DNA from: Bremia lactucae
Taxonomy: Eukaryota; Oomycota; Peronosporomycetes; Peronosporales; Peronosporaceae
Direction: 5' to 3'
Length of the DNA: 64,000 nt
Assembly (NCBI RefSeq): GCF_004359215.1
Contig: NW_027152213.1
Span: forward strand, 881,535 to 945,534
The notes under the pieces were generated by a model. That model did not search any database, had not been told where the DNA came from, and was given only the letters and a program-made list of their open reading frames with translations. Below, one piece after another: positions 1 to 45,881 of this stretch. Position numbers and translations under genes: made by a program. The stretch's first letter is position 1; each line of letters opens with the position of its first letter.

Positions 1-2
1 AA

Positions 3-1302
3 CTCCTTGCCATGAAATATGCACTGGCTAAGTTTAGGGTCTATCTCCGAGGAGATAGACCGTTCATCGTATATACGGACCACGCGTCATTACGCACGGC
101 CGTAAACAGCCCACACCTCTCGCAAAGAATGGCGAGGTGGCTATCCTTCTTCGCGGAGTATGATTTCCCCGTCGAATATAAACTAGGACGACTTAATGTC
201 GTCGCTGATGCGTTATCACGCCGACCCAATTTCGAGTCAGCAGTGCACTCCAACAGTGAAAATAATCTTACTGTTGCAACACTCACAACGAGTGTTCCGT
301 CATCAACCTTAATTGATGACATAAGGAAAGTCTACAAAGAAGATAAGGACCTTCTTTGTTTGATGGATCATTTAATGAATACATCCGATAAATCTTTTAA
401 AGATCTACCAGCTTTATATCGATCGTCATCCGATCGATACACAACACGTAACGGCTTATTGTATTACACAGCCGTTACCGGCGACACTCCACGTGTCGTC
501 GTCCCGACTCACAATGATTTGCGCTTGCGCATCATGTATGAGTGTCACGATGCTCCAACAAGTGGACATCGTGGACGTGAGAAGACTTACCTCACAGTAA
601 GTCGCGACTTTTACTGGCCTCGCCAGTATCAGTTCGTGCGCAAGTACATTCGTGTTTGCAAAGAGTGTCAACGGGTGAAGCCTAGCCCTTCATCCCGTGA
701 CCCTCGCCAACCTCTATTCCTTCCGGCAGAATGTTGGCAGTCCGTATCTATGGACTTCGTCTTCGGATTTCCCGAAGACGAACACAAAAACAATGGAATC
801 CTTGTTTTTGTAGACAGATTCAGCAAGATGGTACATCTTGCTGCGGTACCAGAGTCAATTACGACTCCGGGTTGTGCCGTGTCTTTAACGACACGGTATT
901 CAAACTCCATGGGTTACCCCGTGAATTGGTCTCAGATAGAGATCCTAGATCACGGCGGAGTTCTGGCAATCCGTGTTCCGATCTCTCGGAACACGGCTGA
1001 CTATGTCAACATCCGATCACCCAGAAACGGATGGTCAAACAGAACGCGTAAATCGCGTCCTCGAAGAGATACTTCGAGGTTACGTCCAATCGTTTCCGAA
1101 TTGGAGCGAGTCTTTATTGATGGTCGAATTCGCCATCAATAATTCGGTGCATGCGTCTACAACGCATACACCGTCGTTTGTGAATGGCTTACGCTATCCT
1201 CGCATTCCCACCCAATTAGACGGATCATCTAGTTTAAGGGGGAGGGTAGACTCGCACGAGCAAAACCAATTCTGGCTCATGCTCATCACGCGTCGAAGTT
1301 AA
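3..1302 (+). pseudogene. Gypsy pol fragment: RNase H C-terminus and integrase, frameshifted
   Basis: The frame open from the window edge gives the end of RNase H (YTDHASLRTAV, then the VVADALSRRP motif near 200-225). The integrase HHCC zinc finger follows (ECHDAPTSGH ... CKEC, about 535-670). The first catalytic block is MDFVFGFPED ... VFVDRFSKM near 750-830. The frame is lost at about 880. The next integrase block (HGLPRELVSDRDPR) is in a second frame at 905-955, and the last (HPETDGQTERVNRVLEEIL) in a third frame at 1015-1075. At least two indels therefore separate the DDE residues, so the enzyme cannot be made without repair. It would cut and join cDNA ends during insertion. Confidence 0.9.
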
Positions 1303-1309
1303 CAACGAC

Positions 1310-2270
1310 GTGAGTGATGTCGATGTCGAAGAGATCGACATCGAAGACGAGAATGATCTCATGGCAGTACGCACAAAGCGTACTGGCAAAACAAATGAGT
1401 CAGCAGAAGCAGTTCTGCTAACTCGAAAATCAATAATCCGTTTTGTTAAGGATTCCATTGCTAACGCAGTGGACCGACAGAAACGGAATGCAGACAAACA
1501 TGGAAGAGCAAATGTTCATTCATTTAAAATTAATGATCTAGTGCTACTCTCTACGGTAAACTTATCTAAGCGATTAGTCACTAATGTGGGTAGCAGTAAA
1601 CTACTCATTGGTCCTTTTCGTGTACTGCATCGCAGAGACAATGCGTACACAATAGAATTGACACGTAGGATGCGAACGCATCTTGCGTTTCACGTTGGTC
1701 GGCTTCGCCTGTACCATCTGTACGCGGTTTCTTCCGGGAACGGATCTGACCACCCTTTTCAAGAATCCCTAAAAGATTCTTGTGATCACGAGCCAGATTC
1801 TCATGCTGAATCTGGAGATTCTCATGTCGGGTCCGAAGATCCTCGAAACCGCGATGAGCTGAAGACAGCTCATCACGAAGAGCGTGATATTTCCGTTCGT
1901 TCTCTAACATGGAGTACGCACTCTTCGCACGGTCTTCCAACCGTTCGATATGGTGAGCCTGCACCGTCTGCTCTAACGAGCGACGCTTGCCGCGCTCGTG
2001 GTCAAGTCCCTCCTCCAAATCATGGAGGAAGCGATCGAGTTTGTCGATCTTCGACTCTAGATCCGCCACATGGGTCGGATCTAATTTTCCCTCCCCCGCC
2101 ACAACCACTTGTGGATTCATACGGGTGGTCAACGTTTCCTTGTGGAACGTATTCAGAACCACCGTGATGTGAAGGGGCAGCGAACGAGTAATCTTGTTTG
2201 CTGGCGCGGTTATCCACCTTCACATGACAGCTGGGAGCCTCGTTCCCAGCTGATTGTTGAGGGTTGAGGG
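1310..2270 (+). pseudogene. Gypsy integrase C-terminus, linker and chromodomain (copy A)
   Basis: The open frame 1310-2167 carries the integrase tail, including the GPFRV barrel start near 1610 and FHVGRLRLYH near 1690-1715. A low-complexity linker of about 130 residues rich in Ser, Pro, His and Asp follows. The chromodomain lies at about 2133-2267 in a different frame (FLVERIQNHRDV ... [17 protein letters not shown]), so one indel separates it from integrase. In this family the chromodomain is thought to steer insertion toward modified chromatin. The aromatic and SWEP positions typical of gypsy chromodomains are present. Confidence 0.85.
1605..2162 (-). other. 185-codon antisense open frame with coiled-coil character
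   Basis: Antisense to the integrase-chromodomain linker there is an uninterrupted frame. Its middle (ADLESKIDKLDRFLHDLEEG, then LENERKYHALRDELSSAHRG and RHENLQIQHENLARDHKNLL) is strongly heptad-like. A related frame, broken by one shift, exists antisense in copies C (44608-44074) and D (55722-55188). The frame may be kept open only because sense and antisense are coupled by the many palindromes. The basic tail RKKPRTDGTG is simply the complement of the conserved integrase tail. No known protein was recognised, and I treat it as possible rather than proven coding. Confidence 0.3.
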
Positions 2271-2527
2271 CCTCGTCCGTCAGTATGACGAGACCAATCC
2301 GATGGATCAGAGGGTTCATCGGAAAACATGTGCCGCTGGTGCTTGTAAGTCTTTGCAAAACGTCAATCGCATCGCGCATCTCGATAGAGATGCGACCCCC
2401 TCCCCAGGCCGAAGAAAGCCAATAGACATCCTCTTTTACTCGCTTCGTGTTGTCAACACAACACGGACAGGGATCGCCCCACGTGGGGCATGGAAGTCCT
2501 GCCTCACGTGACAACTGATGCAATAAT

Positions 2528-3347
2528 TTATACCTTTCTCAACCTTAACGCGAATCGCGTTAAGTGTTTGAAGCCAGGCTTCGCGTCCAATATATGTGAC
2601 ATTGCGAATGAACGAGCTCCAGGCTTGGATAAGCGAGACTTTATCTCGCTTATTGTTGCCACTATATCATCGATGCTTGAAAAGAGCGTCGAGATAAAAA
2701 TTTTCTCAGCGCGAAAGTTCTTCGCGCTGGGATCAAGGTCATGTAGCTTTGTCGCAATAAATAAGGGATATTTATTCTGAGAAGTAGTCTCTCTTGACAA
2801 GCAATTAATTAGCTGTTTGGGCAAAAGCCACGGCTTTTTCTCAGGAGCAAGACGAGACATTTTAGTGTCTGGGATCCCCTAAGTGGTACCCACTGAAGCA
2901 GGGGTACCACAAGAACTTTTATTACGATGGCTTACGCCATCGGCATCACCACGCACAGAAATATGTGCGGGTGACGGCACAGGAGACGGTGCTGGCGATG
3001 AGGAATCATCCTCATCGTCGGAACCGAACATGCTGTACCGAATACTACTAGCACGTCTACTCGAATCACCTCCTCATTCGAAGGCTCATAGTCAGCCGCC
3101 TTACATGACCAGGCGACTGTTCTGTTCTCCCCGAGTCGGCCATTTCGTCCGACTCGCATTCGTAGTCGACCTCCAAAGAGGGGTCGCATTCACGTGGTGA
3201 CTCATCACGTGCACCCGCAACATTCAGAGTTGCGGGAGAAGATGACACTACGGCAGACGGAACGTCTGCCGCATGAGATAATAATGCGTCGCCCGCGGCT
3301 GCATGAACAGCAGCCGAAGGAGCGCACTTTTCGCACCCCGCATGCAT
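2528..3347 (-). other. Antisense accessory frame (asORF), copy A, broken
   Basis: Reading from the 3' LTR back toward the chromodomain, the minus strand carries an alanine-rich start and an acidic stretch (DPSLEVDYECESDE) at 3347-3066. This is followed by MSRLAPEKKPWLL ... PLF at 2860-2740 and RNVTYIGREAWL near 2610-2570. The same blocks, in the same order and strand relative to the element, occur at 45800-44950, 56880-56000 and, more distantly, antisense to the minus element at 7645-8480. Frameshifts break this copy. Function is unknown. It lies outside gag and pol, in the place where some plant gypsy elements carry antisense genes. Confidence 0.5.
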
Positions 3348-3463
3348 GCGATAGAATTAAAAATGATGATTCCGACCAATCAACATCGTTTTAATAAAGT
3401 AGTCTTATAGTGACCACTCTACTCAATGACAGTCAGAGTGATTGTCGTTTAAGGGAAGGGTGA

Positions 3464-3896
3464 TGTAATGGGGTGTATCGTTACATGTAATTAATACTTA
3501 AAGGTTGTTAATTAATATATTATCTAAAGGGTAGATAATATTTGCAGAAATTTCTTTACATGGTAATATTCTAAAAGCTTATACATTGGTAGATATAGAC
3601 CATTATATCTACTTTCTCTGCGGTCCAGTCAGCGCTGGACGTGCGCGAAGAGAAGCAGATAAGACTTTAGTACATGTTTTGTATTAGTTTATAATTTAGT
3701 TAGTATTAAGTAGATAGACAAGAAGAACTTAATTTTATTAATACAGTTTTTGATTAACCTTTTAGAGCAAGTGTTTTAAGAAGCGTTTTCCTCTGCACGT
3801 ACTAGTGTACGTGAAGTGACGTGAGGCACCACTCGCGCTGAGGCAGTGCGAAGTGGACTTGTACTGGAGCAGTACAAGTCAGTAGTGCCCCGTACA
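3464..3896 (+). repeat. 3' LTR of family I copy A
   Basis: It begins TGTAATGGGG directly after a purine tract (AAGGGAAGGG) and ends near CCCCGTACA. It matches the LTR at 61731-62170 over its length, including the internal landmarks 'tggtagatatagacc', 'gcgctggac' and the hairpin cluster near 3790-3895. That cluster includes an inverted repeat of CACGTAC and one of CTTGTACT. The terminal inverted repeat of the family is about 10 bp. The last bases are slightly altered here (ccgtacaca instead of ccgttaca). Confidence 0.85.
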
Positions 3897-4850
3897 CAGA
3901 GCATTACTGAGCGCCAGCGCAAGCTGCTTTTCATGGTTTCCGCTGATCAGAGTCCATATTACCCGCATTTTGACTAAGCATGGGCAATCTCCGGTGCTTT
4001 ATGTCCCTGCGCGCGTGAGGACCACCTGGGACCAATTTTTTTGCGAAAACGAATGACATGAGACCTGGGATGCGATAGTTACATATTCTCCCGATGAGCT
4101 CACGGACGGCAAATTACTAGCTTTCAAGCCTTGACTAAAATTCTGCTGTGGAGGCAATGTTGAAAGCGGCGATAATTGCGTTAATGGCTGAATGCGTGGG
4201 TCCATATCACTGCAACTTGGACTCAAGGCAGCAACAAACGATGAATTGTCCGATATTCATGGCAACACAGTACTCGTGCCGGTCGGAGCAAGCTCTTTAA
4301 GGTCTGGACGAAGAAACGTCGTAAAAAAGCCACGCTCCACGCAACTCCGGACGTGCGTCTACAGCTCGAAGGAATCGCTCCAGTCTCGCTCGTCTATAAT
4401 GTAACAGATCCGGATCATCTCCAAGCAGATACGAAATTCATCCACCGTTTGGAAATCGAGGTAGCGCTTCCTGCAATGCTGAGCCTGCGCTCCACCAAGT
4501 AGGTATACAATTGACGAAAGTCAGTGTATCGTCTCATGACCGTGTAGAGCACCATGGGTGGTATATCGGGTACACATTATCATCTGCTGCCGTGGCATCA
4601 ATGGTCTCACTGCAATTGATTCCCGCGTCAGATTTATATAGCCCGCAAACGATACCAACTAGCTTGCAGCAGTATGAATTAGCTTGCATCAGCAGCAATA
4701 GCAGATTATGTCAAGCACCTCATTTGATATCCAAGCTAGTATTTTTTTTGAGTTGCACGAGTAATCTGCAGATCACGACTCGCTTTGCTACCGGCCTGAA
4801 TCGGCTGCAGCGCGCGTGAGGCATTAGTAGTCACAGATTGCATTCGACTG
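3897..4850 (+). pseudogene. Decayed host-like coding fragment, family not identified
   Basis: No retroelement motif is seen here. Pieces of good coding appearance occur in different plus frames. About 4192-4300 reads ISLQLGLKAATNDELSDIHG. About 4300-4500 reads LEGIAPVSLVYNVTDPDHLQ and then HRLEIEVALPAM. About 4560-4760 reads SGTHYHLLPWHQWSHC and then YVKHL. The pieces are in order but separated by frameshifts and stops, as expected of a former single gene trapped between transposons. I cannot name the protein family with confidence. The His and Cys-rich stretch suggests a secreted or enzyme domain. Confidence 0.35.
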
Positions 4851-4949: not shown

Positions 4950-5202
4950 TTATTGATTAATTCATTACATTAAAGCCAGTAGATGAAAGGTCGCTATGAA
5001 AGAAGTTAATATATTAATACAGTTTATTTTTTTCCTATTCTAAAGTTATAGAGTTTACCTTTAGTAGCTAAGACTTCTTAGCTACTTGAAACCTTTCTCT
5101 GCGCGTCATGTACGTGAAGTAGTCGAGGCACCCAACCTTCACTGTAATCAGTGAAGGTTGACTAATACTGTTATCAGTACTAGCAAAAGGTGCCCCGTTA
5201 CA
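4950..5202 (+). repeat. LTR 3' end (gypsy, plus orientation), truncated
   Basis: The segment ends GTGCCCCGTTACA at 5202. It carries the family's hairpin cluster: a CCTTCACTG/CAGTGAAGG inverted repeat at 5136-5160 and a paired TACTG motif at 5166-5180. The left part shares 'ttaatatattaatacagttt' with the LTR-like segment at 17820-17850. The LTR start is not recognisable, so the left limit is approximate. Confidence 0.6.
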
Positions 5203-5229: not shown

Positions 5230-6960
5230 TTCTACATTTCTTCTGTATTGCCTCCCCTCTTTGCATCTCAAATTTCGCAAAGTTATAGCTTTGGTTGGCG
5301 CATAAAGAATGAAAAGATGAAGTCTTTCGAAAATGGTGACATAGAGAATAAAGCTTCTGCATGTTTGTCTTCGCTATCAGCAATTGTGTCACGCGTATGT
5401 CGTAACCATTCAATCGCTTACCAAGAACTCTTACCAGTTTCCTTACATATTAGAGCTGATGCCAGCAAGCTTTCGGCTATATCGCCTCCACCAAGCCTTG
5501 TCCCTGCACCGTTAATGGAATGCGCGGGTGTATGAGTGGCCTATCGGAGCATGACTAGCGTCAAACTTAACAGCTGGGAGCGTTGTGCTCTAGCGCTATG
5601 GTGTTTCGGACACACATTTCGCCAAACGTCTTTAATGACGCGATTGAGACGTTCAGTCTGACCGTCGGTCTGCGGATGATTCGCTGTGGAAATGTCCAAT
5701 CTCGTGCCAAGTGCCCGAAAGATTGATTTTTGAACTTATCCATGTCGGGGACAAATACCACAGGCAAACGCGTTGTCGAAACATACGATCAGTAAACATC
5801 TTAGATATACTTCACCAGCAATGGTATCTGGTACAGCCGCTAATTGAGTCATTTCGCTTAATCGCTCAACAAAGACCAATATGCCTATGTTGCCTTCCGA
5901 ATCCTTCGGGAGGCCGAAAACAAAATCTATTCTAATAAATTCCCAACGCCTGATGGGTACGTGCAAATTAACAAGTGGCACAGTTGTATGTGCTGAGGTA
6001 CATTTCGCGTGTGCAAACATAGCTACTGACCCATTTTTAAAGTTTCGGCCACCACTGAACCAGTACCATGTGCCTCAAAGAGGATCCGTTTCATGATATT
6101 AATTTCTTGTCATGAGGCACTTCGATTTGCAAGGGGTTCGCTATATCAGCACGAAAAGGCTATAACCGGTATAATATGGATGTATCCTGCACTCAATTGT
6201 GCCGATAACTTAATGTCCGAATTTGTGAATTTATTCTTTTCAAGAGCTTGTAACAAAGCTGCGCACTGTTTATTCTTGGCACATGCCTCACGGGATGTGT
6301 CAAATTGGAGACTAAGCAGTCGCAACATGAGCTAGCTTATAGTCATGTCCGCGTGATGACGCATCGGCCAAATCACTTTGCTTTCTAAGCTTATACTAAA
6401 CCTCAAAGTTTTATTAAGCAAAAAATGAAAGCCATTGGAGAAACTTCTGTGAGAGGTGAGTCGACTTAGCCGCCGTACGCAAAGATGCATGATCTGTATA
6501 AATCACAAAAGGCTTAGAGCCAAGCAACACTGTGAATATCCCAAGAGCATACTTCTAACAAGTGACTCGTTGTCATAACCGGAGTAGTTCTTTTCGGCAG
6601 CAATAGACTGCCGAAAAAACGCAATTACATCTGTTTGTAAACGCACTGCCAATTGCAAAGTCTGATATGTCACAGACGACACTGAAAGGCCGATTAGCAT
6701 AAGGCAGAACCAAAATCGCAGCATGAGTTTGACTTCCCTTTTTCGCTTTAAAAGCGTCAATTTCGTTGCTAATCCAGCATTCGTATTCTTATACTGGAGA
6801 TTGGATAATGGCCGAGCCAAATCAGCGTAATTTTTGCTGTATCGATGCAAGTAATTTGCAAGGCCAATCCATTCCCACAATTCCTTCTGGATCTTAGGAA
6901 CTGGTCAGTCTACTACGGCTCTACCTTAGCGGGATCCGCTTTAAGGCTCCAGGCCTTAGA
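5230..6960 (-). pseudogene. Family III gypsy pol relic: RT end, RNase H, integrase
   Basis: Read on the minus strand, about 6900-6800 gives the RT thumb (WIGLANYLHRYSKNYADLARPL). RNase H remnants follow to about 6480. The integrase core is at 6020-5740 (RIDFVFGLPKDSEGNIGILVFVERLSEM). The DGQTER-containing block is near 5690-5600, and the integrase tail is at about 5530-5240. Many frameshifts and stops are present, and it is more decayed than the family I copies. A parallel relic lies at 50280-51850. The stretch 6020-6480 holds only weak integrase and RNase H remnants. Confidence 0.75.
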
Positions 6961-13545: not shown

Positions 13546-15410
13546 GCCCTCTTCAGTATTGATTGAATCAACATTGGCATCCTTCGCATTGACTGTTGAG
13601 TCAATGCGGGATGAGCAAGAGCTAAATAGTTCTTTGCTCTAGCAAGTCTCTCCCCCCTTGGATAAAAGTCACTCTCAAACAAGACGGGTACACGGGGATG
13701 GCGTAAGGCATTCACGAAAATAGTGTATGCTTTGTTGATGCATGCACGGACTGTTGGTGGCAAATTATTCCATCGGCAACAATTCGCTTCAACTCGCAAA
13801 CGAGTGGATGTATCCGCGAAGTTTCTTCGAGGATACGATTTGCACGTTCTGTCTGACCAGCTGTTTCCGAATTATCAGAATTGGGCATTTTGAATTGTTC
13901 ATAACACAGATTGCCAAAATTCCGCCGTGAACCGGATGTCTCGATCTGAGACCAGTTCACTGGGTAACCCATGTAGTCGAAGACACGAGCACAGCCTTCG
14001 GTTTTGATCGACTCCGGGACTTAAGCAAAATGTACCATCTTGCTGAAACGATCAAGAAACACAAGGATACAATTATTCTTGTGGAAATCGTCGGAAAATT
14101 CAAAAGCGAAGTCCATAGATACGGACTACCAACACTCTGTCGGTACAGGCAGGGGTTGTATTGGGATTAAGCACTGGGCCTCACCCGTTGATAAACTTGC
14201 AAGCACGAGGACGAATTCATACTGTCGTGGCCAGTAGAAGTCGCGGCTTGTCGTGAGATAAGTTCTATTACGTTCACGATGCCCACTTATTGGTGCATCG
14301 TGGCATTCATACATGATGCATTAATCAAATCATTATGGAAGGGGATGACGACACGAGGTGTGTAGCCAGCAAAGGCTATGTAATACATTAAAAAAAACCA
14401 TTGCGTGTTGTGTATCGATCCGTTGAGGGATCGATACAATTTCGACAATCCTTCTAAGGATTGTTTAGGTGATTTTTAAAGATAATCCATTAACCCTTTA
14501 AGAGCCTTATATTCATGATTGTGTTTTCTAACGTCGCCAAGTAATGTTGACGACGGAACACTTATTGTTGTAATAGTGGGCGTATCCTCACTATTAATTT
14601 GCGCAGCCGGCTCATACTCGGTCCAGCGCGAAAGGACATCAGCGACGACATTAAGTCGTCCTGGTTTATGTTTGCACGGAAATGTTGGACTCCGCGAAGA
14701 AAGCCAACCATACGATATCCTGCGGGAGGTGTGGACTATTTACGGCCCTGCGTAAAGACACATGGTTTGTATAAATAATGAACGGTCTATCTCCCAAGAG
14801 ATAGTCCCTAAACTTAGCCAGTGCATATTTCATGACAAGATATTCCTTGTCATGCCAAGGGTATTTGCGTTGAGCTGGTTGAAGCTGACGTGACTGATAG
14901 CAGACGATGCGCTCTGCGCCGTCTGTGTTATATTGCATTAACGCACAGCCAATTGCGAAATCGCTGGCGACATATAGCACATGTGAAGGTCGGTCTTGAT
15001 CTGCAATCGCCAAAATGGGCGATTGCATCAAGCTTTGCTTGATACTATCGAAGGGACGCTGACAATTAGCGTTTCAGAACCACTTTACATTTTTCTTCAA
15101 CAAAGAAGAAAGATGTACTGTCATTTCGGCACAATTGTTGGTGTACTTGTGCAAATACGCCGCTAAGCCGAGGTACTTTCGAAGCCCCTTTACATCGACT
15201 GACATAGGCCAGTCGGTGATCGCCTGAATCTTTTCCGGGTCAGGGCGTACGCTGCGTTTACACACGATGCACCCAAGAAGGGATATTTCACTTGCAGCGA
15301 AGATTCATTTCTTCACATTTGCATAAAGTTATGCTTACGCACAAGTGTTTATTTCTTATCTGTTAGTCTTCATCTAAAAACATTAAGAAATATCTACGAT
15401 GTACTTTAAT
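13546..15410 (-). pseudogene. Gypsy copy B integrase, RNase H and RT end
   Basis: Minus strand, high to low: RT end and connection (VKGLRKYLGLAAYLHKYTNN, 15200-15130); RNase H start (VLYVASDFAIGCALMQYNTDGAERIV, 14990-14900); RNase H end (YALAKFRDYLLGDRPFIIYT, 14830-14760); integrase HHCC start (YECHDAPISGHRERNRTYL, 14314-14255); integrase core near 14110-14020; the DGQTER-like block (SETAGQTERANRILEE) near 13870-13825. Many stops and shifts occur. Below 15411 it is homologous to, but not identical with, 29104-30483. Confidence 0.85.
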
Positions 15411-15424
15411 GTCCGACTTTCCTT

Positions 15425-16860
15425 TTATATCTCATTTATAGCGAAGACGTCATCTAAATGACTCGGTGCAAAAGTTCGTACCGGTCTTAACAGATTGGTT
15501 ACACATCTGTTAAATGTCGCAGGGGCATTACTAAGTTCTTGTGGCATCACTAGCCACTCCTGTAGCATTCTGCTTGGGGTGCTTACTGCTGTGAACGGGA
15601 TATCCTGTTCACGCATAAGGATCTGATAGTCCTCCCATCAGATGCATTGACGTAAAGATTGTACTGTTTGACATACCATCAATAATTACGTCTTTTCATG
15701 GTATCGGCATTTGGGCCGGTATCGGTGCAGCGCTCAGTTGATTGAATTTATGCCCATTCCGCCACCCTCCTGTTGCTTTGCGCACACAGAAGGTCGGAGA
15801 GCTATGTGGGGAGGTTGACTGCGTCACATGGCCCGCTGCTAAGCGTTCGGCAAAGAATTTGTGGATCGCTAATACTTATTTCACGAGGCAATGGGCAATG
15901 CTTCATAACACCGTATTTTGAACCTGGTATGAGATCGTTTTCGTGTCGAGTACCTTTTATCCTTCGGTAACTCGCACGGTACTGATTCAGGAAAGACATC
16001 CTTAGATTCTATTAAATTCTTATACAGAGGGTTTGTCAAAGACTCCCAGAACTGAAATTTAAAACGTTTACTCCGAGTCTTCTCATCGAGGACACTTTCG
16101 GCCATCGATGAGCTGCTGAGAACTCGTTCGTTCTCAGGAAATACTATTGCCGACCGAATATCGGACACATATTTGTCATCTGGGACAAGTACGCAGATCT
16201 GCTTGACTTTGCCACTCTGCAGAACACACAAGAACCCTTTCGGCTTTAGCATTGGCAATTGAGTTATCTTCGAAATTAACTCCGGCGGCGCTATCAGATC
16301 AAGTATATAAGCGTCTACACATGATTCGTTGTTTGCTAAGACATTTGATCTCCCAGTTTCCTCTTTGGAGCTTATTTCCAAAGGTACCTGGATCCTTTGA
16401 CGACAGGTTTCTGGGGACTTATTCCTGCATATTCTTGAGGACTTCTTCTCTCAAGTTTTATCAGGGAGTATCCTCCCCAACTGCTTCTAGCTGTGGTTGC
16501 TCAATCACAGCGAGATCCTCCACGATCGACTCTCCAGTCGATCTAGGATTTTTCGCACTAACTCTTATAGACAGGCGTTGGATATTTTCTTGGATGTTGC
16601 TTTTGCAGCAGGCATCCTTGTTTCGAACCACTCAACTTATTCGAATGGTCGAACTTTGACGCTGCCTGTGCTTGTGCAAAGCCGTCGAGATCTTACTCCA
16701 CAGTGTAATGGGTAATAACAATGAGGCATTTTGCAGTCGTGCAAACGACCAAACCACAAGTGAGACCATCGCACTCACTCGTAGGACATCCACACGCTTG
16801 TGGATGCTCCAAGACGTTCGTGAGATCGCCATCTGATGAACGAAAGGCAGTAAGCCTACA
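15425..16860 (-). pseudogene. Gypsy family I protease-RT fragment (left arm)
   Basis: The open minus frame 16381-15881 gives the linker between protease and RT (APPELISKITQLPML, VLSSSSMAESVLDEK, DVFPESVPCELPKDK). The RT palm follows in other frames (MLQEWLVMPQELSNAPATFN, 15570-15500; PSHLDDVFAINE, 15465-15430). The RT catalytic DD is visible as SHLDD. Protease-proximal sequence reaches about 16860, where it joins asORF-type sequence. It is identical to 27654-29089 on the other arm. Confidence 0.85.
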
Positions 16861-22790: not shown

Positions 22791-23060
22791 TGAAGATGCA
22801 CTTGTCAAGTATCGAATGTACCTGTTAAGCACCGACCATTTGTAGTTTATATGGACCACGCATCATTGCGGACCGCAATAAACTCACCGTACCTCTCGCC
22901 TAGAATGGCAAGATGGCTCACATTCTTCTCTGAATAAAGTCAGAACCATAAGATGGTACTAGTGCGTAGGACTCATATATCAAACAGTGAAACGAGGCAC
23001 TGCCGACTTGTACTGCTTCAGTACAAGTCCAATTCGCACTGCCTCATAAGGATCTGATAA
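22790..23060 (+). pseudogene. Gypsy RNase H scrap and LTR hairpin scrap
   Basis: 22840-22940 encodes VYMDHASLRTAINSPYLSPRMARWLTFFSE, the end of RNase H, closest to the family II version at 35060. It is followed at 22990-23045 by the LTR hairpin CTTGTACTG...CAGTACAAG. Both are small orphan pieces. Confidence 0.65.
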
Positions 23061-23143
23061 AATACATCCATCAGATCCATAGACGAAAAGATGGTACTCT
23101 TAGACATACCATCTATGATTACGTCTTTTATAGGTATCGGCGT

Positions 23144-23778
23144 TTAAGCCGGTTCCGTTGCAGCATTCAGTTTGTTGAATGCGTGCACTATCCGCCATTC
23201 TACTGGTCTTTCGCACACAGAAGGTCGGAGAGCTATGTGGGAGGGTTGACTCCTTAGATGGCCCGCTTTTAATCGATCGATAAAGAATTTATCGATCGCA
23301 AGTACTTGTTCACGAGGCAGTGGCCACTGCTTCATGAGACAGTATTTCAAGCCCGATTTGAGCTCGATTACATGTCGAGTGTCTTTATCCTTAGGCAATT
23401 CGCATGGAACTGTTTCAGAACTTCATCCTTGAATTCAATCAAATCCTTGTATAAAGGATTTGTCTTAAGTGACTCCCAGGATCGAGTAGTAAATCTCTCA
23501 ATCCGAGTCTTCACACCGAGGACACTTTCGTCCATCGATGAGCTGCAGAGAACCCCTTCGTTACCTGCAAAAATTACCGCTGACCGAATATCGATTTCGT
23601 ATCCGTCCTCTGTGACGAGTACGCGGATCTGTTTGATTCTATTGCTATGCAGATCTCTAAAGGACCGATTGGATTCTAGGGTTGGTAATTGAGTTATCTC
23701 CGAAATTAACTTCGGAGGCGCATACAGATCAAGAGTATAAGCGCCTCCTCTTGATCCGTCATTAACCAAGACATTCAA
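23144..23778 (-). pseudogene. Gypsy RT N-terminal part
   Basis: The minus frame 23778-23368 has the pre-RT segment (LDLYAPPKLISEITQLPTLE, SSSMDESVLGVKTRIERFTT). The next frame, 23398-23144, begins the RT fingers (HVIELKSGLKYC, RPVEWRIVHAFNKLNAATEP). A frameshift separates the two near 23385. It is close to 40970-41490 and 63250-63800. Confidence 0.85.
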
Positions 23779-24523
23779 TGTCTCGGTTTCTTCTAAGATT
23801 TACCCACAGGCTGCCGAGGGATCAATCCCTCGGAATACTGAAGTCTAGTCACTTCAGCATTAGCTATATTTAAGGTGAATTCACCTCAAGTACGTGGGGA
23901 CTTATTCCCTCGACGCCTTCCGACTGTGATTGCGCTATCACAGTCGGGTCCTCTACGGTCGACTCTCTACTCGACCTAGGATCATCGTGTTGTTTATTTT
24001 GGACAACCGGTATCTTCCTTGGATGTCGCCCGCTAGGCGTACATTCATGTCTCAGACCACTCGGCTTATTCGAGTGGTGGACCTTCAGCGCTGCCTGTGC
24101 ATTCACACAGCCGCCGACAGCTGACTCCACACGTGATTAGTAATCACGCTGTGATCTTGTGCAGCCGTACTTACGACTGTACCACAAGTGGGCCAACGCA
24201 CTCACTTGTAGTACATCGACACGCTTGTGGACGCTCCAAGACGTTCATCAGATGGTCATCTGATGAACAAGTGGCAGGCATCTTTACGGATCGATGCTGC
24301 CAGCTGATTCTTAACTAATTATTTCTGAGCCAAGGTAAACCTAGGATAACATCAAATTCATCATCCAATCCATTACGATGAAATCAGCATCATACTGTAA
24401 ATCTTTTAACGTGTAGTGAAATCTCACTGCGCGTTTCATCACTATTTTCGATGCGCCTGTCGCTAGACACACCGGCATCCTCGTGAGGAATGTCGCGCTC
24501 AACATATCTGAGCCTACGACCCT

Positions 24524-24889
24524 CTAGCGAATGGCGACGAATAAAGTTTTCGACGCCCCACAGTCCACTACGGGTCTGAGTGACAAAGCATTTGTCACTT
24601 TTAACTTCAAGGTGATGAGGGATACCTCATCGCCAGGTGCAGAGACCCATAATGACAGTGTGGCTGGAACAACTTTCGTCAAGAGATTTGCCAATTCTCT
24701 TAAATTTGCTGGATCAGTAGGGCGTCGCGCCCCTACTGACTCCGACCGTTTTTGGCGGTCCGCCTCGCTGTTGCGATTTTGCAACAATGTCGGACCCGCG
24801 ACCGTTGCCCTTTTTGACATTCGGTCCATAATTACGTTCAGTACCTCTCGGTACTGAGCGTGGGGCACTGCACTCATGATCGTAGTGTC
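24524..24889 (-). pseudogene. Gypsy protease frame overlapping the gag end
   Basis: The frame is open for 117 codons and reaches SLRPVVDCGASKTLFVAIR, the protease active-site region (DCGAS for the usual DSGAS). It overlaps the gag frame by about 170 bp and lies one base downstream of the gag phase. A +1 shift would therefore be required to make gag-pol. The same overlap exists at 36951-37256. The continuation (TGAS ... DDEFDVI ... PWL) is found at 37310-37460 in another copy. Confidence 0.6.
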
Positions 24890-25469
24890 CTAACTTTTGA
24901 CAGCGATTGCCTTTCTGCAATCGCTTATTGTTCGAAAAGCGAGGTTTCTCGCTTTCGACATAAGAGAGATCCATAGGTTCTGGACCTCCAAGTTCGTGTC
25001 GTCTTGGAGGATCATATGATGACGAACTAGCTTGAGCCTTTCTCAAGCTAAAGTCCTCCTGTTTCGCAACGGATATTGGCTCTTCAAGCGTATCCAGTTC
25101 CAAGCGGAACAGGTGGGTCTTCACTGGACCAACCGTAAGACCTTGCATGAACACCGTAATTAACATGTGTTTATGTACTGGGTTGATTGTGATACATGCT
25201 AAGAGTCGTACGTGCTGGGCATAAGCGTGATCATCACGCTTGTCTTGCTTGAGTTTCAGAAGCTCTGATCGAGCTCTGAACTCAGCCCTAGGCGGTTCAA
25301 ATGTCTGTTTGAGCCGGGCTTTAAAAGCCTCTAGCGACCCAAAGATATATGGGTCGCGCAACTTAAGGCCTAATGCCCAAGTTTCGGCACGACCTGCCAA
25401 ATTTAATTGAGCAGATTCGACTTGCATTTGCTCGTCGACGATGTGACGAGCCCTTATCGCATCGTCCAA
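24714..25469 (-). CDS. Gypsy family I gag, capsid and nucleocapsid part, 251 aa open
   Basis: Longest gag frame in the window. The capsid-like part is about residues 1-140. A linker with GGPEPMDLSYVE follows, then one CCHC-like knuckle (NRCQKLGHYDHEC, about residues 186-198) whose first Cys is replaced. A basic Gly-rich tail follows. An upstream gag N-terminus (25851-25560) is out of phase because of one indel. The frame above 25051 is identical to the left-arm copy at 19045-19462. Confidence 0.8.
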   Translation of the reverse strand: MDDAIRARHIVDEQMQVESAQLNLAGRAETWALGLKLRDPYIFGSLEAFKARLKQTFEPPRAEFRARSELLKLKQDKRDDHAYAQHVRLLACITINPVHKHMLITVFMQGLTVGPVKTHLFRLELDTLEEPISVAKQEDFSLRKAQASSSSYDPPRRHELGGPEPMDLSYVESEKPRFSNNKRLQKGNRCQKLGHYDHECSAPRSVPRGTERNYGPNVKKGNGRGSDIVAKSQQRGGPPKTVGVSRGATPY

Positions 25470-27657: not shown

Positions 27658-30483
27658 GGCTTACTGCCTTTCGTTCATCAGATGGCGATCTCACGAACGT
27701 CTTGGAGCATCCACAAGCGTGTGGATGTCCTACGAGTGAGTGCGATGGTCTCACTTGTGGTTTGGTCGTTTGCACGACTGCAAAATGCCTCATTGTTATT
27801 ACCCATTACACTGTGGAGTAAGATCTCGACGGCTTTGCACAAGCACAGGCAGCGTCAAAGTTCGACCATTCGAATAAGTTGAGTGGTTCGAAACAAGGAT
27901 GCCTGCTGCAAAAGCAACATCCAAGAAAATATCCAACGCCTGTCTATAAGAGTTAGTGCGAAAAATCCTAGATCGACTGGAGAGTCGATCGTGGAGGATC
28001 TCGCTGTGATTGAGCAACCACAGCTAGAAGCAGTTGGGGAGGATACTCCCTGATAAAACTTGAGAGAAGAAGTCCTCAAGAATATGCAGGAATAAGTCCC
28101 CAGAAACCTGTCGTCAAAGGATCCAGGTACCTTTGGAAATAAGCTCCAAAGAGGAAACTGGGAGATCAAATGTCTTAGCAAACAACGAATCATGTGTAGA
28201 CGCTTATATACTTGATCTGATAGCGCCGCCGGAGTTAATTTCGAAGATAACTCAATTGCCAATGCTAAAGCCGAAAGGGTTCTTGTGTGTTCTGCAGAGT
28301 GGCAAAGTCAAGCAGATCTGCGTACTTGTCCCAGATGACAAATATGTGTCCGATATTCGGTCGGCAATAGTATTTCCTGAGAACGAACGAGTTCTCAGCA
28401 GCTCATCGATGGCCGAAAGTGTCCTCGATGAGAAGACTCGGAGTAAACGTTTTAAATTTCAGTTCTGGGAGTCTTTGACAAACCCTCTGTATAAGAATTT
28501 AATAGAATCTAAGGATGTCTTTCCTGAATCAGTACCGTGCGAGTTACCGAAGGATAAAAGGTACTCGACACGAAAACGATCTCATACCAGGTTCAAAATA
28601 CGGTGTTATGAAGCATTGCCCATTGCCTCGTGAAATAAGTATTAGCGATCCACAAATTCTTTGCCGAACGCTTAGCAGCGGGCCATGTGACGCAGTCAAC
28701 CTCCCCACATAGCTCTCCGACCTTCTGTGTGCGCAAAGCAACAGGAGGGTGGCGGAATGGGCATAAATTCAATCAACTGAGCGCTGCACCGATACCGGCC
28801 CAAATGCCGATACCATGAAAAGACGTAATTATTGATGGTATGTCAAACAGTACAATCTTTACGTCAATGCATCTGATGGGAGGACTATCAGATCCTTATG
28901 CGTGAACAGGATATCCCGTTCACAGCAGTAAGCACCCCAAGCAGAATGCTACAGGAGTGGCTAGTGATGCCACAAGAACTTAGTAATGCCCCTGCGACAT
29001 TTAACAGATGTGTAACCAATCTGTTAAGACCGGTACGAACTTTTGCACCGAGTCATTTAGATGACGTCTTCGCTATAAATGAGATATAAAAGGAAAGTCG
29101 GACGTTGTAGTACGCCGTACTCACGTCCGAAAGATCTCACACTTATGCGTAAGCACAAAGTTATGCAAATCACAAGAAGTGGATATTCGCTGCAAGCAAA
29201 ATACTACTTCTTGGGTGCATCTTGGGTAAAGAAGGTGTGCGCCCTGATCCGAAATATGAAGGCAATCACCGAATGGCCTGTGCCAGCCGATTCAAAGGGA
29301 CTTCGAAAGTTCCTCGGCTTAGCGGCGTACTTACATAAGTACATCCGCTATCATGCCGAAAAGACAATACATAATTCTTCTACATTCAAGAAAATGTAAA
29401 AAGTTCATGAAACGCTGATTGTCAGCGTTCCTTTGAGGGCATTAAGCAAAGCTTGTTTGGAATTCCCAATCCTGGCGATTGCTAGTGGTCTATGACGCCA
29501 GCGATTTTGCAATCGGTTGTGCGTAAATGCAATATGATATAGACGGCGCAGAGCGCATTGTCCTCACCATGAAATATGAAGTAGCTAATTTTAGGGTCTA
29601 TCTCTTGGGAGATAAACCGTTCATCGTAAATACGGACCATGCGTCTTTACGCACGGCTGTAAACAGTTCGCACCTCTCGCAAAGGATGGCGAGAGTGAAG
29701 TATAAACCAAGACGACTTAACGTCGTCGCTGATGCCTTTTCGCGCCGGCCCAATTTTGAACAGGCTACGCAAATCAACAGTGAGCATAAGACCACTGTTT
29801 TCTCAATAAGTGTACCGTCGTTAACATTACTTGACGACGTTAGATAAGCTTATCAAGAAGATAAGGCTCTTAAAGGGTTGATGGATTACCTTACAGATCC
29901 ATTCCAATAATCCTAGAAAGATTTTTGACATTGTATCGATCCTCAACAGATCTATATAGAACACGCAATGGTTTGTTTTATTAAACAGCCATTGCTGGCG
30001 ACACACCTCGTGTCGTCATCCCTACCCCAAAAAATTTGCGATTACGCATTATGTATGAGTCCCTCGATGCACCAAAAAGTGGTCATCGTGTACATGAGGA
30101 GACTTATCTCATGATAAGTCGCGCCTTTTACTGGCCACGCCAGTGTGAGTTCGTCCGCAGGTACGTACGTGCTTGCAAATTTTGTCAACGGGTAAAGCCC
30201 AGTACCTCGTCCCGTGCTCCATTAAAACCTCTGCTTGTTATGGCAGAGTGTTGGCAAAATCCGTATCTATGGGTGATGTCTTCGGATTCCCCGAAGACAA
30301 CCAAAAGAATTATTATATTCTCGTTTTCGTTGATCGTTTTAGCAAGATGGTATATTTTTGTGCCGTCCCGGAGTCGATCACAGACAAAGGCTGTGCTCGT
30401 GTCTTTGCTGACACGATAGTTCGACTTCATGGGTACCCCGTGAGCTGGTCTCAGATCGAGACCCTTAATTTACAGCGTAAATG
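27658..30483 (+). mobile_element. Family I gypsy pol, plus strand (protease to integrase core)
   Basis: Open pieces: protease-RT linker 28133-28633; RT palm 28898-29089 with SHLDDVFAI; RT thumb 29260-29399 (RKFLGLAAYLHKYIRYHAEK); RNase H 29480-29800; integrase HHCC region 30036-30200; integrase core to 30483, where it is cut by family II gag in the opposite direction. Frameshifts and stops make it inactive. Beyond 29103 it diverges from the mirrored element at 13546-15410. Confidence 0.85.
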
Positions 30484-31438
30484 TTTCGTGCTTTTGCACA
30501 TATAACATCTATGGATGTTCTTATGCTGTTCCACAGCTTGAAGTGCTTCTTCTCCTTTCTTACAAGGCTTAGATCAATGGGTTACGGCCTATTAGACGGT
30601 ACTTATGTGTCGAAGAGCTTGTACGGTAACCAGGCGCGCTAGCACGAGCAGACTTAAAGTCTAATTCAGCGCGTAGCGCTATGGTAACTGCATTTTTCAA
30701 AGTAGCAGGGTGGGATTGGAATAATTTCGTCTGAGCAACTTCCTCAGTGAGACCCCCCACAAAGATTGTTTCGGCAATTGCTTCTTGTACCGGGTCTTGA
30801 TGCATAGATGCAATGAGAGTTCTCAACTCCAGGACATATCCCCCTAGGGCTCGTTTACCCTATCGAGTCGCTATGAGCCGTGATGCATGCGAAAAACCAG
30901 ATCAGGCGGTGCAAACATGCCGGTGATTTGCTACTTCAGTGAATGCCATGAGGAAAAAAAGCGTCGTTTGTGGACGTGCTGCACGGGAGTGCCCACTCCA
31001 TCGCTCTACCTCCGAGCTTAAAATTAGCCATAGCCACCTATAGTAGTTCTGTTAAGAAAAGGCAGAGTAAATGGACATTTGCATCTGCTTGATCCAAAAA
31101 GGTAGATTTTCTCCCACTTTTCCTCAAATGGCTTCACATTGACAACTAAAAAGCAAGCCTTAGGCTTTGAATCAGGTACAGAGATGTACCGAGTTGGCAT
31201 AGAAGCCGCAAGGTCTGTCAAAATCAAAGAAGATTCATGTTGCATGAAAACTTCAAGCCTTGCATGCAGGACCTCTGGTCCCTGGGGCATAATGACTCTA
31301 TATGTTGAAGCCCGAATAAAGCTTTGAGCTGGTCATACGCTATGTGTTGCGCCTCTGAAAGATCTGGAAATGTTTCCATTTCAGTGAAAGCTTAGTCTTA
31401 TGTAGACTTAGGCGTAGATTGACTACGAGTGCTTCCAG
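30484..31438 (-). pseudogene. Family II gypsy gag, decayed
   Basis: Minus strand: an N-terminal part (31290-31024: LEVFMQHESSLILTDLAASM, SVPDSKPKACFLVVNVKPF) and a capsid-like part (30826-30569: QDPVQEAIAETIFVGGLTEE, SHPATLKNAVTIALRAELDF). It matches the better-preserved gag at 48440-47300. A primer site CCTGGAAGCACTC follows the LTR at 31440, so gag is in the correct place after an LTR. It ends at the junction with plus integrase at 30483. Confidence 0.75.
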
Positions 31439-31439
31439 G

Positions 31440-31742
31440 TGTAGCGGAGAAACGTCGCTCCTTGAGTCAGAAGAAGACTTATAGACTTAAAGAGTTTTTA
31501 GTTAGATAGATCTAATTGAGCATATCTTTCTAGATACCTTGCGTAACGGATAACGCAAGGCGTCATCCCTTCTAATGTGAATGCACCTATTTGCATCACA
31601 TACACAAGGGTTGGTCACAAGTGTGAACCACACCCGAGTAGTGGGTCTAATTACTTTACTAATTTACTGATTATCCCCTTAAGTACACCAAGTGTACTTT
31701 ACGGGGACTGTGTAACACTACGGCAAATTTAGTTTGTTACAC
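31440..31742 (-). repeat. Family II LTR shared by two element bodies
   Basis: On the minus strand it starts TGTAACAAAC right after a purine tract (GGGGGAGAATGG) and ends CTCCGCTACA right before a primer site. It is therefore at once the 3' LTR of the pol body at 31743-36880 and the 5' LTR of the gag at 30484-31438. Length is 303 bp. Confidence 0.75.
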
Positions 31743-31872
31743 CATTCTCCCCCTTATAGAACGAATTTAGATTTTTAATTCGTCAAAGAGGTGCGAGGAA
31801 CTGCGAGCTGCTTAACATGCCGTTAGCTCTCTCAGTCCCTCTAGCGACCTGTGCTTCCATACACGGTGCCAA

Positions 31873-32600
31873 ATATGCCACCTAAAAGGGCCACGTTGGT
31901 GGGTCGTCTGCGTAGACACCTGCTCAACCTCGCACTAAGCGCACGCACCGCGTTAACACGTCGGCGACGTCCAATGCCTTAGTCGAAACGCCGACAGCTA
32001 CTGCTGCTGTCGCGTTAACAGGGCTTAAGAAATCACCTCTTTTTAACAGTGAGGATGTTGATCCGTCGCTCATTGTCGACTACAATGAGTCGACACCGTT
32101 GCCGTCACCTCATAGTAGTGATGCGGACAACGAATTCATGAGGAAGGATGATGGCGCATTATTGCTCATCCAAACTTCTCTCATGGCTCACAACATGGAA
32201 ACAGCAACAATTACGAATGATGTCTCGTCGTCTGCGCTGGATAGCGCAGCGACAGGTAACGAGAGCGCTGCCCATAAATGCGCAGCCGCTTTTTCGTTGG
32301 GTAAATCCACAACGCCTTATGCTCCGACCATTATCCATAATGGTTCTCACATAAAGCATTTTTAGCCTAAAGCTCTGCCGACGACACTTGAACGTGCTCA
32401 TTCGGTGTCAAAAGCCAGTCGGTTTGAACGTCGCTATGTGAAGGTGGCATATCACTGATACCTTCTCCATTTAAAATGGCCTCGTTTAAACGGGCCAAGA
32501 GCGTCGCTCTTAGAGTGCGGCCTTCTAGACGCTCATAAATATTATGGCGTCTTTAAACCATGGAAGGCTCAGAGAATATCGCTTAGTCATATTTTCCCGA
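31873..32600 (+). other. Antisense accessory frame of family II
   Basis: On the plus strand, antisense to the element, the frame open up to 32365 reads ...FNSEDVDPSLIVDYNESTPL and continues to a stop at 32363. The block DPSL-x-VDY-x2-ES parallels DPSLEVDYECESDE of the family I asORF, at the equivalent place between chromodomain and 3' LTR. A coding-looking continuation follows to about 32600 (ERRYVKVAY, CGLLDAHKYYGVFKPWK). Candidate only. Confidence 0.4.
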
Positions 32601-35668: not shown

Positions 35669-36463
35669 TTAGCCCGTCTTCAGCCTATTATGCACGAATA
35701 CATTGTCGAAGTAATGGGGCGCGTAGGCACGGTGCTGACGCATCACGTGAGCCACCACCCAGTTGAATGTCGCTGGTGCGCTTTTCAAACCTTGGGGCAT
35801 CACAAGCCACTCCCAAAGCATACCGCTTAGAGTGCTTACTTTCTTTTTGGCTACATCGGACTCTCTCACGAGTACGTGATAGTAGCCATCCTTCAAATCC
35901 AACGCGGAAAAGATAGTTGAATTTCCCATGGAGTTCAACAAGACATCTTTCCGCGGGATTGGCGTTTGCGCCGGTATGGTCGCCGTGTTCAGCTTATTAT
36001 AAGCATGAACCACGCGCCATCCACCTGTGGCTTTACGCACACAAAAGGTCGGGCTGCAGTGAGGCGATTTGCTCTCACGCACATGTCCCGCCTTGGCTCG
36101 TTTGTCGAAGAACTCATCGATATAATCGACTTGTTCTTTCGGCAACGGCCATTGCCTGGTCACACAATACTTGGTGCCAGGTTCGAGGTCTATCTCGTGC
36201 CCGATGCCCCTATCTGCTGGTAGGCGGCTCGGCACTTCTTCTGGGAACACATCACGATGTTTCCACAGAACCTCAAAGAACGGACTGTCTCTCAAGGCAT
36301 CCCAGCCTTGAGCAGCGTACCGCTTCTTTTTGTCCGTTTCTAGGACGCTCTCGTCCATTGTGGACGACGAGCAGCAGTCCACCAAGTTCTCTTCTGGAAC
36401 TGGCGTGACTATTTCGTGGATCTTTCCTTCCTTTAATTCGGCAAGGAACAGATCCCACGACAT
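35669..36463 (-). CDS. Family II gypsy reverse transcriptase, 264-aa open portion
   Basis: The best-preserved RT in the window. Segments in order: pre-RT linker (SSSTMDESVLETDKKKR); fingers (HEIDLEPGTKYCVTRQWPLP); SPTFCVRKATGGWRVVHAYN; QTPIPRKDVLL; FSALDLKDGYYHVLV; MLWEWLVMPQGLKSAPATFN; active-site region HYFDNVFVHN. The active-site second Asp is Asn (FDN instead of FDD), so the enzyme is probably dead even though the frame is open. The frame shifts after residue 264, near 35669. Confidence 0.85.
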   Translation of the reverse strand: MSWDLFLAELKEGKIHEIVTPVPEENLVDCCSSSTMDESVLETDKKKRYAAQGWDALRDSPFFEVLWKHRDVFPEEVPSRLPADRGIGHEIDLEPGTKYCVTRQWPLPKEQVDYIDEFFDKRAKAGHVRESKSPHCSPTFCVRKATGGWRVVHAYNKLNTATIPAQTPIPRKDVLLNSMGNSTIFSALDLKDGYYHVLVRESDVAKKKVSTLSGMLWEWLVMPQGLKSAPATFNWVVAHVMRQHRAYAPHYFDNVFVHNRLKTG

Positions 36464-36894
36464 CTCCGGGAGATTTACTATCTCCTCGGCAGATTAAAGA
36501 CTTGCCGGAGCACCTCAACTGAGGATGCCTCCGCAATTTCGTCTTTGACGGCCTCGAACACCTCGTTCGAAGGCCCGTCCTCTTCATTGAGACTGATCCA
36601 AAGGTCACTCCTTTAGATGTGCCTTTGATCGTCCTAATCTGTCGAGTACTCGTTTTCGAGTTACCACGACCCTTTTCTGGGAAGCGGGTGTCATTACACT
36701 CCTGGCTAACGCATCCCTTCCAACCGCACCAGGCTCTTGGTACTGTGCCGGTTTATGCGACGCATGACTTCTTGTCAGCTCGCCGTCTACTGCCACAGGC
36801 TCTCGGCTCTGTGCAGGACATTCGGACGCATGACTACTTGTCATCGTCCTATTCACTACCTCAGTCTCCACGAGCTAAGTAGGAATTGGTGACG

Positions 36895-40602: not shown

Positions 40603-40965
40603 TGTTGAAGATTGATGAGTTCATCGAAAGTGTTGCGCTTTATGCATATGCGTGTATAAGGGAATATGGCAAGGGATCGTATGACGAGAATGATACGGAG
40701 AATTTGTGTGTGGAAAATATCGTGTGTTGTGGCTCAGTCAGGTAAGCATGATGGTGCTGACCACAGGTCACCGGTTCGATATCCGGCAACGACAAAAAGT
40801 AAAACCTTCGGGAACTGGTGTTTGGGGTTCACCAGCACTGTACCGCCAGACATTGACGTCCCCCATTTTATAGTAGTCCACATATGTGGGAAAGGGGGCG
40901 CAGCGAACGATAGGAAAGAATTAACGGTAGGATAAAATTAACGGTAAGATTGAGATAAACTAAAA
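40603..40965 (+). repeat. Copia 2 3' LTR, truncated, with tRNA-like module
   Basis: It begins TGTTGAAGATTG after AGCAAGGGAGAG. A-box TGGCTCAGTCAG is at 40730-40741 and B-box GGTTCGATATC at 40773-40783, spaced as in a tRNA gene. The LTR breaks off about 75 bp before its expected end and joins gypsy RT sequence. Confidence 0.85.
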
Positions 40966-40969
40966 ATAT

Positions 40970-42130: not shown

Positions 42131-42189
42131 AAGACGAGAAATGGTTATGGAACGCTGATTGTCAGCGTTCCTATGAAGGTATCAAGCAA

Positions 42190-43680: not shown

Positions 43681-43799
43681 CAAACGACGCGAATGATGTC
43701 GATAGCTTCGCAATCGACATCGCAGATAAGAAAGATCTCATGGCAGTGCGAACAAAGCGCACTGAAAAGACAAAACAAATGAGTCAGTAGAGGAATTTC

Positions 43800-45800: not shown

Positions 45801-45881
45801 AATCTTTTTTAATAAAGTGGTCATATAGTGACCACTCTACCCAATGACAGTCAGATTGATTGTCGTTAAAGGGAGGGGGGA

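Follow-up and report, generated by a model that had tools for sequence, protein, structure and literature searches.

Short perfect hairpins are densely packed in Ty3/gypsy-type elements of Bremia lactucae and may be kept by selection for folding

We analysed a stretch of 64,000 nucleotides from the Bremia lactucae contig NW_027152213.1 (positions 881,535 to 945,534), hereafter the window, in which host genes and Copia segments are found together with several hairpin-rich elements. The PPIP5K gene at 59069-60982 shows 84-88% identity to the best named proteins of Phytophthora, Plasmopara and Peronospora and 99% to one further protein, and the host is, as judged from its sequence, a Peronosporaceae-type oomycete. 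The hairpin-rich material comprises copy A, a member of family I (1-3950, plus strand) with RNase H, integrase, a downstream frame and a 3' region; copy B, a relative (13971-16850, minus strand); a gag and early pol part (23045-25144, minus strand); copy F (28200-32200, plus strand); segment G, a gag region (36250-37980, plus strand); copy C, which runs from RT to the 3' end (40950-46100, plus strand), and its close relative copy D (52050-56800, plus strand); and segment E, the 5' part of an element (61700-63800, plus strand), with N from 63807 onward. Domain matches in copy A were PF17917, PF17921 and PF09337; copy C matched PF17919 above the cut-off and RVT_1 below it, and the protein relatives in Phytophthora and Peronospora carried RT, RNase H and integrase-type domains, many of them with rve. 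By RT, RNase H, H2C2-type integrase and pol order, the hairpin-rich elements can be assigned to Ty3/gypsy (Metaviridae-type), and repeats in the window hint at LTR parts. At gathering score, no Rfam family matched within the window. Open frames of 158-204 aa lie opposite the downstream ORF (44192-44668, 55306-55782 and 1605-2219, minus strand) and are possibly a by-product of palindromic sequence. Elsewhere in the window, hairpins of 10-12 bp occur outside the gypsy segments (5063-5086, 5133-5160 and 6591-6617), and a 120-bp tandem repeat of 1.9 copies (46392-46624) adjoins a stretch at 46.6-48.6 kb with a fold excess of 8-10%.

A sequence-only reading of the window had named seven hairpins in copy A, and all of them are present on the plus strand: 38-61 (10 bp, loop 4), 335-358, contained in a hairpin at 334-359 (9 bp, loop 8), 417-439 (9 bp, loop 5), 448-478 (9 bp, loop 13), 577-595 (5 bp), 584-603 (7 bp) and 971-996 (11 bp, loop 4). 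Two others on the same strand lie at 756-782 (11 bp, loop 5), within the integrase coding sequence, and at 784-811 (10 bp, loop 8). Over its whole length, copy A contains 71 perfect stems of at least 6 bp (loop 3-16), and 26% of its bases sit in stems; the 33 stems that reach at least 8 bp are 33 different sequences. Five sub-ranges of 1-3950 held 15-21 stems per kb, with a similar density in coding and non-coding parts, and the excess extends beyond RNase H-integrase. For the first two 2-kb intervals, dinucleotide shuffles gave 7.6 and 7.4 perfect stems of at least 6 bp where the native sequence has 38 and 37; for stems of at least 8 bp, the shuffles gave 1.0 and 0.4 and the native sequence has 17 and 16. 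When stems of at least 6 bp with loops of 3-20 were counted per segment, the eight gypsy segments of the window had 13.2-19.0 perfect stems per kb (2.9-3.8 in dinucleotide shuffles), a count unaffected by the mixed strand of segments B1 and B2m, and the seven Copia and host segments had 3.4-5.9 (3.0-4.4 in dinucleotide shuffles). As a protein-preserving control, we used a synonymous-codon shuffle in which neither the protein nor the codon counts change. In the RNase H/integrase zinc-binding open frame of copy A (3-872, plus strand), we observed 8 stems of at least 8 bp for a mean of 0.43 and a maximum of 3 in 1000 shuffles, and at the family I locus L035 9 such stems for a mean of 0.58 and a maximum of 4. 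The inverted-repeat density that the reading had seen in copy A is thus above that of codon-preserving shuffles. Its remark that Copia and host genes show no such density was also borne out: two Copia frames, a PH-domain gene and PPIP5K lay near the codon-shuffle null, with 0-1 stems of at least 8 bp each and, for 6-bp stems, 3 vs 2.4 and 4 vs 2.2 (Copia), 9 vs 7.4 (PH) and 7 vs 7.0 (PPIP5K). Overall, the hairpin excess is real and extreme in the hairpin-rich gypsy elements.

We then considered the shape of this signal. For inverted repeats of 7 bp, the count per kb and gap length was 0.50-1.25 at gaps 3-10, 0.43 at gaps 0-2 and about 0.16 at gaps 11-17, and it was near the background of 0.05 from gap 18 on. 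No comparable excess was found for 7-bp direct, mirror or complement repeats, all of which stayed at or below 0.19 per kb per gap length. Across 26 kb, stems of 6, 7, 8, 9, 10 and 11 bp with loops 3-10 numbered 101, 67, 59, 39, 20 and 9 (34.8, 8.6 and 2.2 for 6, 7 and 8 bp in shuffles of the same set), and none of these 295 stems reached 12 bp. One 12-bp stem is known, in the 3' region of copy C (45917-45945).

With the first 1140 bases of copy A as a query, the genome gave at least 41 matches at 93% or more, a lower bound from a search in which 40 candidates were scored. N occurs in 26 of the 30 family I loci L009-L038 (500-1500 bases in 24 of them), so the open frames of more than 1000 aa found in such loci do not show intact elements. 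Many family I matches in L016, L017, L021, L024, L029, L031 and L033-L038 stop exactly at query position 1111 or start exactly at 66, and the stretch adjoining these ends is N in many loci and not in others; L024:1501-3692 holds two family I integrase segments head to tail, covering query 1-1111 and then directly 62-1140. Copy F as a query returned seven identical copies over 1141 bp, that is, copy F itself (29500-30640) and six further genome copies, together with 33 copies at 77-82%, which constitute family J. In the copy F region, at 29.1-32.2 kb, no plus-strand frame of at least 150 aa was listed; the identical copies may reflect a recent burst, perhaps involving an element that others mobilise. 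All 19 family J loci examined were hairpin-rich, as was copy F. Twelve further gypsy integrase loci had 45-61% identity to the family I frame (first-listed match). Among them, L079, L085 and L086 carried 7-9 stems of at least 8 bp vs about 0.3, eight loci carried 0-1 and L076 carried 3, the counts of L080 and L083 resting on less sequence because of their N stretches (847 and 176 N). In an integrase tree (midpoint-rooted, without support values), the hairpin-rich elements formed two separate clades. Sixteen loci from an rve search (L001-L008 and L039-L046) were possible gypsy controls; none of them matched the family I frame at E 0.001, and their 6-bp stems were 0.85 to 2.3 times the shuffle.

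Of six comparisons of hairpin positions between one hairpin-rich clade and the other, that of J75 with L086 showed agreement above chance, and the other five were at chance level. Occupancy in family J was at least 0.3 for 14 of 24 family I helices, and 11 of 24 family J helices had an occupancy below 0.3 in family I. All 32 aligned copies (copies C and D and 30 family I loci, copy A among them) have an intact hairpin 417-439. In family J, the stretch of copy A hairpin 334-359 is paired in another register (326-353), and the stretch 784-811 forms a different hairpin, 784-805; the ten residues encoded there are identical in L009, L035 and JL058 and differ in JL064 and JL070. Pairings were thus little conserved while hairpin density stayed high. 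The sequence-only reading had held that the hairpins covary between copies. The pair changes that it listed do occur, including the one at 14412-14437, which sits in a minus-strand copy, and hairpin 448-478 shows two pairs with paired changes between families, but as a statistic covariation is weak both within and between families. Among family I copies, there were 6 two-sided changes vs 1.4 expected, and the 4 Watson-Crick ones are one variant in four copies; among family J copies, there were 19 (11 Watson-Crick) vs 21.2 expected. Between families, there were 35 two-sided Watson-Crick changes vs 17.6 expected in 16 overlapping ordered contrasts, and the matched two-sided rate was 0.030 vs 0.026 in the offset control. 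Strong covariation as a general claim was rejected on the within-family and matched/offset counts. Stem differences between families were one-sided in 404 cases and two-sided in 60; since two-sided changes do not clearly exceed independence within families and do so only modestly between them, the hairpins mostly turn over and do not covary.

Selection on RNA folding is ordinarily expected to favour G-U over A-C replacements. We found no preference for G-U over A-C in stems among private changes (83 vs 86), shared changes (4 vs 11) or changes between families (13 vs 20). Overlapping contrasts gave 265 vs 323, and pooling the shared and between-family changes gave 17 G-U vs 31 A-C (p 0.06). The window snapshots gave 7 vs 13, a weaker split than the private, shared and between-family count because segments B1 and B2m are of mixed strand.

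The fold excess over shuffles was calculated on 300-nt fragments. On the sense strand, it was 44 and 42% for copy A, 38% for L034, 37% for copy C, 27% for J75 and 24% for copy F, and two Copia and two host genes gave -2 to +4% on both strands. Against synonymous shuffles, three L035 fragments reached 43-46% (z -5.7 to -7.9), and the seven control fragments gave -7 to +9% (PPIP5K) and -4 to +4% (Copia). The hairpin-rich loci L079, L085 and L086 had a fold excess of 9-16%, with only 8.7% in L085, and L078, L083 (which holds 176 N) and L084, from gypsy families poor in perfect hairpins, had 12.6-18.9%. Perfect-hairpin density and fold excess are therefore different traits, and self-folding may be more general in the gypsy elements here, unlike in Copia. 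In the test made for strand bias, the mean difference in fold excess over 49 family I-type fragments was -0.06 kcal/mol (p 0.95), and the fold excess is strand-symmetric in this test. Sixteen family J fragments leaned by 1.77 to antisense (p 0.19), and in the piece-by-piece folding comparison above, sense was slightly ahead of antisense, by 3-8 points, in 4 of 4 family I/C pieces. With a load shared equally by the two strands and no regard for G-U, the object of any selection would not simply be a folded sense mRNA; strand symmetry and the indifference to G-U suggest that both strands, or DNA, matter.

Constraint on the stems was estimated from one 1.1-kb and one 1.5-kb region. On older branches, hairpin-breaking substitutions numbered 15 vs 36.4 expected at random sites, with 12 gains vs 9.3; on terminal branches, they numbered 66 vs 73.9, with 33 gains vs 20.0. 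Private changes broke hairpins 48 times vs 72.0 expected in family I and 118 times vs 131.8 in family J, and created them 12 times vs 18.1 (I) and 34 times vs 44.5 (J), with no excess. Degenerate sites in stems differed less than elsewhere, with Mantel-Haenszel odds ratios of 0.35 for family I vs J, 0.37 for I vs F and 0.50 for I vs C/D, and non-degenerate sites showed no stem deficit in the same three comparisons. Outgroup-based rows weigh more, because comparisons without an outgroup are inflated by survivorship. Three outgroup branch rows, picked afterwards from eight for their non-overlapping branches, gave changed degenerate sites of 6/83 in stems vs 14/110 elsewhere, 3/54 vs 20/142 and 3/70 vs 17/115. 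Summed, these amount to 12/207 vs 51/367 (Fisher p 0.003), and the corresponding non-degenerate counts are 29/474 vs 69/1025 (p 0.74). All eight degenerate rows went in the same direction (61/533 vs 286/1163, with overlapping branches), and p was at or below 0.05 in only two of them, the F branch (0.016) and the I side (0.0006). These results support a lower rate of change at degenerate stem sites on older branches. Private degenerate changes in stems were reduced in family I (OR 0.32) and not in family J (0.94), and private non-degenerate changes were reduced in family J stems (OR 0.65, p 0.02). A contrast between hairpins constrained when active and free when dead is not clean, because family I private changes also break fewer hairpins and those of family J hardly do. 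For the 3' region, copy A and six other family I loci were compared with copy C, with no outgroup. Copy C stems differed from family I at 7/185 sites vs 89/688 elsewhere in the downstream ORF, and at 0/151 vs 18/261 after the ORF; in the reverse comparison, family I stems showed mild conservation only, differing from copy C at 20/310 vs 105/1078 (p 0.09), and after the ORF at 3/123 vs 15/289 (p 0.29). Single-copy comparisons in this region were mostly non-significant.

Several explanations have to be weighed against these observations. The sequence-only reading had offered a copying process that turns imperfect palindromes into perfect ones, as would happen if the nascent strand snapped back during reverse transcription (template switching) and one arm were rewritten as the reverse complement, functionless palindromes building up with time. 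Such copying accounts for strand symmetry, pure Watson-Crick pairing and short-loop dependence, for the restriction to elements that use their own RT, for the non-coding hairpins and for the twofold excess of two-sided Watson-Crick changes between families; the terminal-branch gains would fit as well, and parts of two studies document template switching in yeast coding genes and RNA genes (PMC8604942; PMC8794818). However, its expected footprints were found only at control level. Clusters of at least three changes matching a nearby inverted copy numbered 4 of 2858 (two of them alignment-gap artefacts) vs 4 mirror, 3 complement and 12 direct, and in a second set 2 of 1217 vs 1 mirror, 1 complement and 32 direct. 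Mismatches were gathered on one arm in 51 of 152 hairpins vs 46.3 +/- 5.3 expected, row I10, which reads N upstream, being left out (with this row included, same-arm cases numbered 62 and mixed cases 112), and neither arm was favoured (312 changes left, 348 right). Reverse-complemented loops were seen by eye at 38-61 vs 42416-42439 and at 45330 vs 56444; each is explicable by two single changes, and the intermediate loop is common for 38-61. Unbiased arm copying should also yield many two-sided changes, against the 404 one-sided and 60 two-sided differences observed, and private hairpin gains were not in excess. Template switching with multi-nucleotide footprints was not supported, since neither the clusters nor the one-arm gathering exceeded control. 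A slow reverse-transcription bias with single-base footprints would escape these tests, and copying as the source of the hairpins is, in our estimate, fairly unlikely. Stems change more slowly on older branches, individual hairpins turn over and no conversion footprints were seen; on balance, this points to selection for being folded and away from a copying artefact, without deciding the matter.

Selection on a structured RNA, the other explanation given by the reading, stood in part: constraint was supported by the degenerate stem sites and by the depletion of breaking changes, but a conventional sense-RNA structure did not agree with strand-equal folding and the lack of a G-U preference. In its ordinary form, the transcript would be selected to fold for translation, packaging or stability, as in viral genome-scale ordered RNA structure (GORS). 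In its favour, the elements show a very high fold excess, poorly conserved pairings and fewer degenerate changes in stems, features that part of PMC7642675 also describes for GORS. Against it, G-U was not favoured over A-C in any count, from 7 vs 13 to 265 vs 323, and the fold excess was strand-equal over 49 fragments, though sense was ahead in 4 of 4 family I/C pieces; we consider it improbable. Alternatively, single-stranded cDNA could be the selected molecule, hairpins in minus- or plus-strand DNA protecting it or pacing strand transfer. The Watson-Crick-only, strand-symmetric pattern agrees with this, as does the slight lean to A-C on the sense strand, which reads as G-T on the minus strand (17 vs 31, p 0.06), but the lean is non-significant and cDNA and RNA are not separated by these results, and we regard such selection as quite improbable. 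That the hairpins arise by chance, or from base composition, codon usage or protein repeats, is extremely improbable: the dinucleotide and synonymous shuffles rule out chance and base composition, direct, mirror and complement repeats are not in excess, and the 33 long stems are all different.

Our preference, tentative and held with some doubt, is that selection maintains a strand-symmetric self-folded element, perhaps shielding it from annealing and RNA silencing. A Ty3/gypsy clade in Bremia lactucae carries a genome-scale load of perfectly Watson-Crick hairpins, mostly of 6-11 bp and with short loops, in coding and non-coding sequence alike. Which bases pair is largely indifferent, hairpins being replaced between families while their density stays high, and selection would keep the load while the element replicates. 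The hairpins may serve to keep the single strands of the element, its transcripts in both orientations and perhaps its cDNA, folded against annealing with each other or with small RNAs, and the stems would be held near one helical turn so that they form no Dicer or dsRNA-binding substrate. Selection against such annealing would produce the strand symmetry and the indifference to G-U, and a ceiling near one helical turn would escape double-strand-RNA enzymes. The fuller version, in which the lineage was selected, perhaps twice, for self-complementarity of both strands, and hairpins of at most about one helical turn act as armour against annealing, evading RNA silencing without becoming a Dicer substrate, is rather unlikely as it stands. 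We infer both the selection for folding and the shielding function, whereas density, specificity, loop range, the rarity of stems of at least 12 bp, the protein-preserving excess, strand symmetry and the slower change of stems on older branches were computed. The host genome yielded five matches to the Piwi domain and two open frames that carry paired RNase III matches, and RNA silencing is likely to be present. A group of four equally scoring Piwi-domain matches, two per strand, within 30 kb (G000 C118:698027-727928) represents a putative Argonaute gene cluster. In Phytophthora infestans, small RNAs in both orientations are described along two gypsy elements in part of PMC3522703.

These observations indicate that perfect, covarying-looking hairpins need not imply a conserved RNA structure. 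Since one genome holds hairpin-rich and hairpin-poor gypsy families together with Copia controls, the question of armour versus reverse-transcription by-product is directly testable. The sequence-only reading knew of no described element with this property, and our searches of open-licence PMC papers likewise showed no such retrotransposon. Related kinds are known, namely GORS in RNA viruses, which is the nearest, and nematomorph coding palindromes; nearest in form are the latter and template-switch palindromes. Maize Sireviruses (Copia), as presented in part of PMC10760457 (citing Bousios 2016), are also LTR retrotransposons with many palindromes and a link to small-RNA biology. There, one recurring motif is the most abundant, the hairpins are concentrated in Copia LTRs, and Ty3 elements have no obvious peak (PMC10760457, same part); here, unlike in Sireviruses, unrelated stems (33 of 33 different) extend across all gypsy sub-ranges and the two Copia segments are at background. 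Template switching, through arm homogenisation or spacer inversion, also turns short imperfect inverted repeats into perfect ones, coding DNA included, according to parts of PMC8604942 and PMC8794818, but the clustered one-arm changes described there were not above control here. Nematomorph mitochondrial coding palindromes, in the portion of PMC6649704 that concerns them, are likewise perfect inverted repeats in functional coding sequence; relatives have gained and lost them, with degenerate codons used for pairing. They reach up to 284 bp, and their authors consider repeat conversion (PMC6649704, same portion), whereas here almost no stem reaches 12 bp (none at loops 3-10 in 26 kb), changes are mostly one-sided and conversion footprints were not found.

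The likeness to GORS goes further. In the relevant sections of PMC7642675, the fold excess of GORS runs genome-long from many successive stem-loops, pairings are poorly conserved between relatives, paired sites change less, and the effect is thought to come from being folded and not from particular structures. Here too, folding exceeded that of shuffles, pairings were not conserved and synonymous change was reduced, with 6 of 8 rows non-significant when taken alone. The same sections give genome-mean fold excesses of 7.5-10.7% for HCV, about 15% for SARS-CoV-2 and 23.4% for the highest vertebrate virus mean, with a local peak above 50%. Family I, J and F pieces of 1.8-2.7 kb average 24-44%, above these virus genome means, with fragment length and shuffling differing between the studies. 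In contrast to the strand-specific folding of a single-stranded RNA genome, the excess here was strand-equal and lacked a G-U preference. Genome-scale self-folding, described in RNA viruses, would thus also be a property of a transposable element, one whose host has silencing genes. Overall, where GORS belongs to RNA viruses, the elements described here would be LTR retrotransposons with perfect Watson-Crick stems and a strand-symmetric excess.
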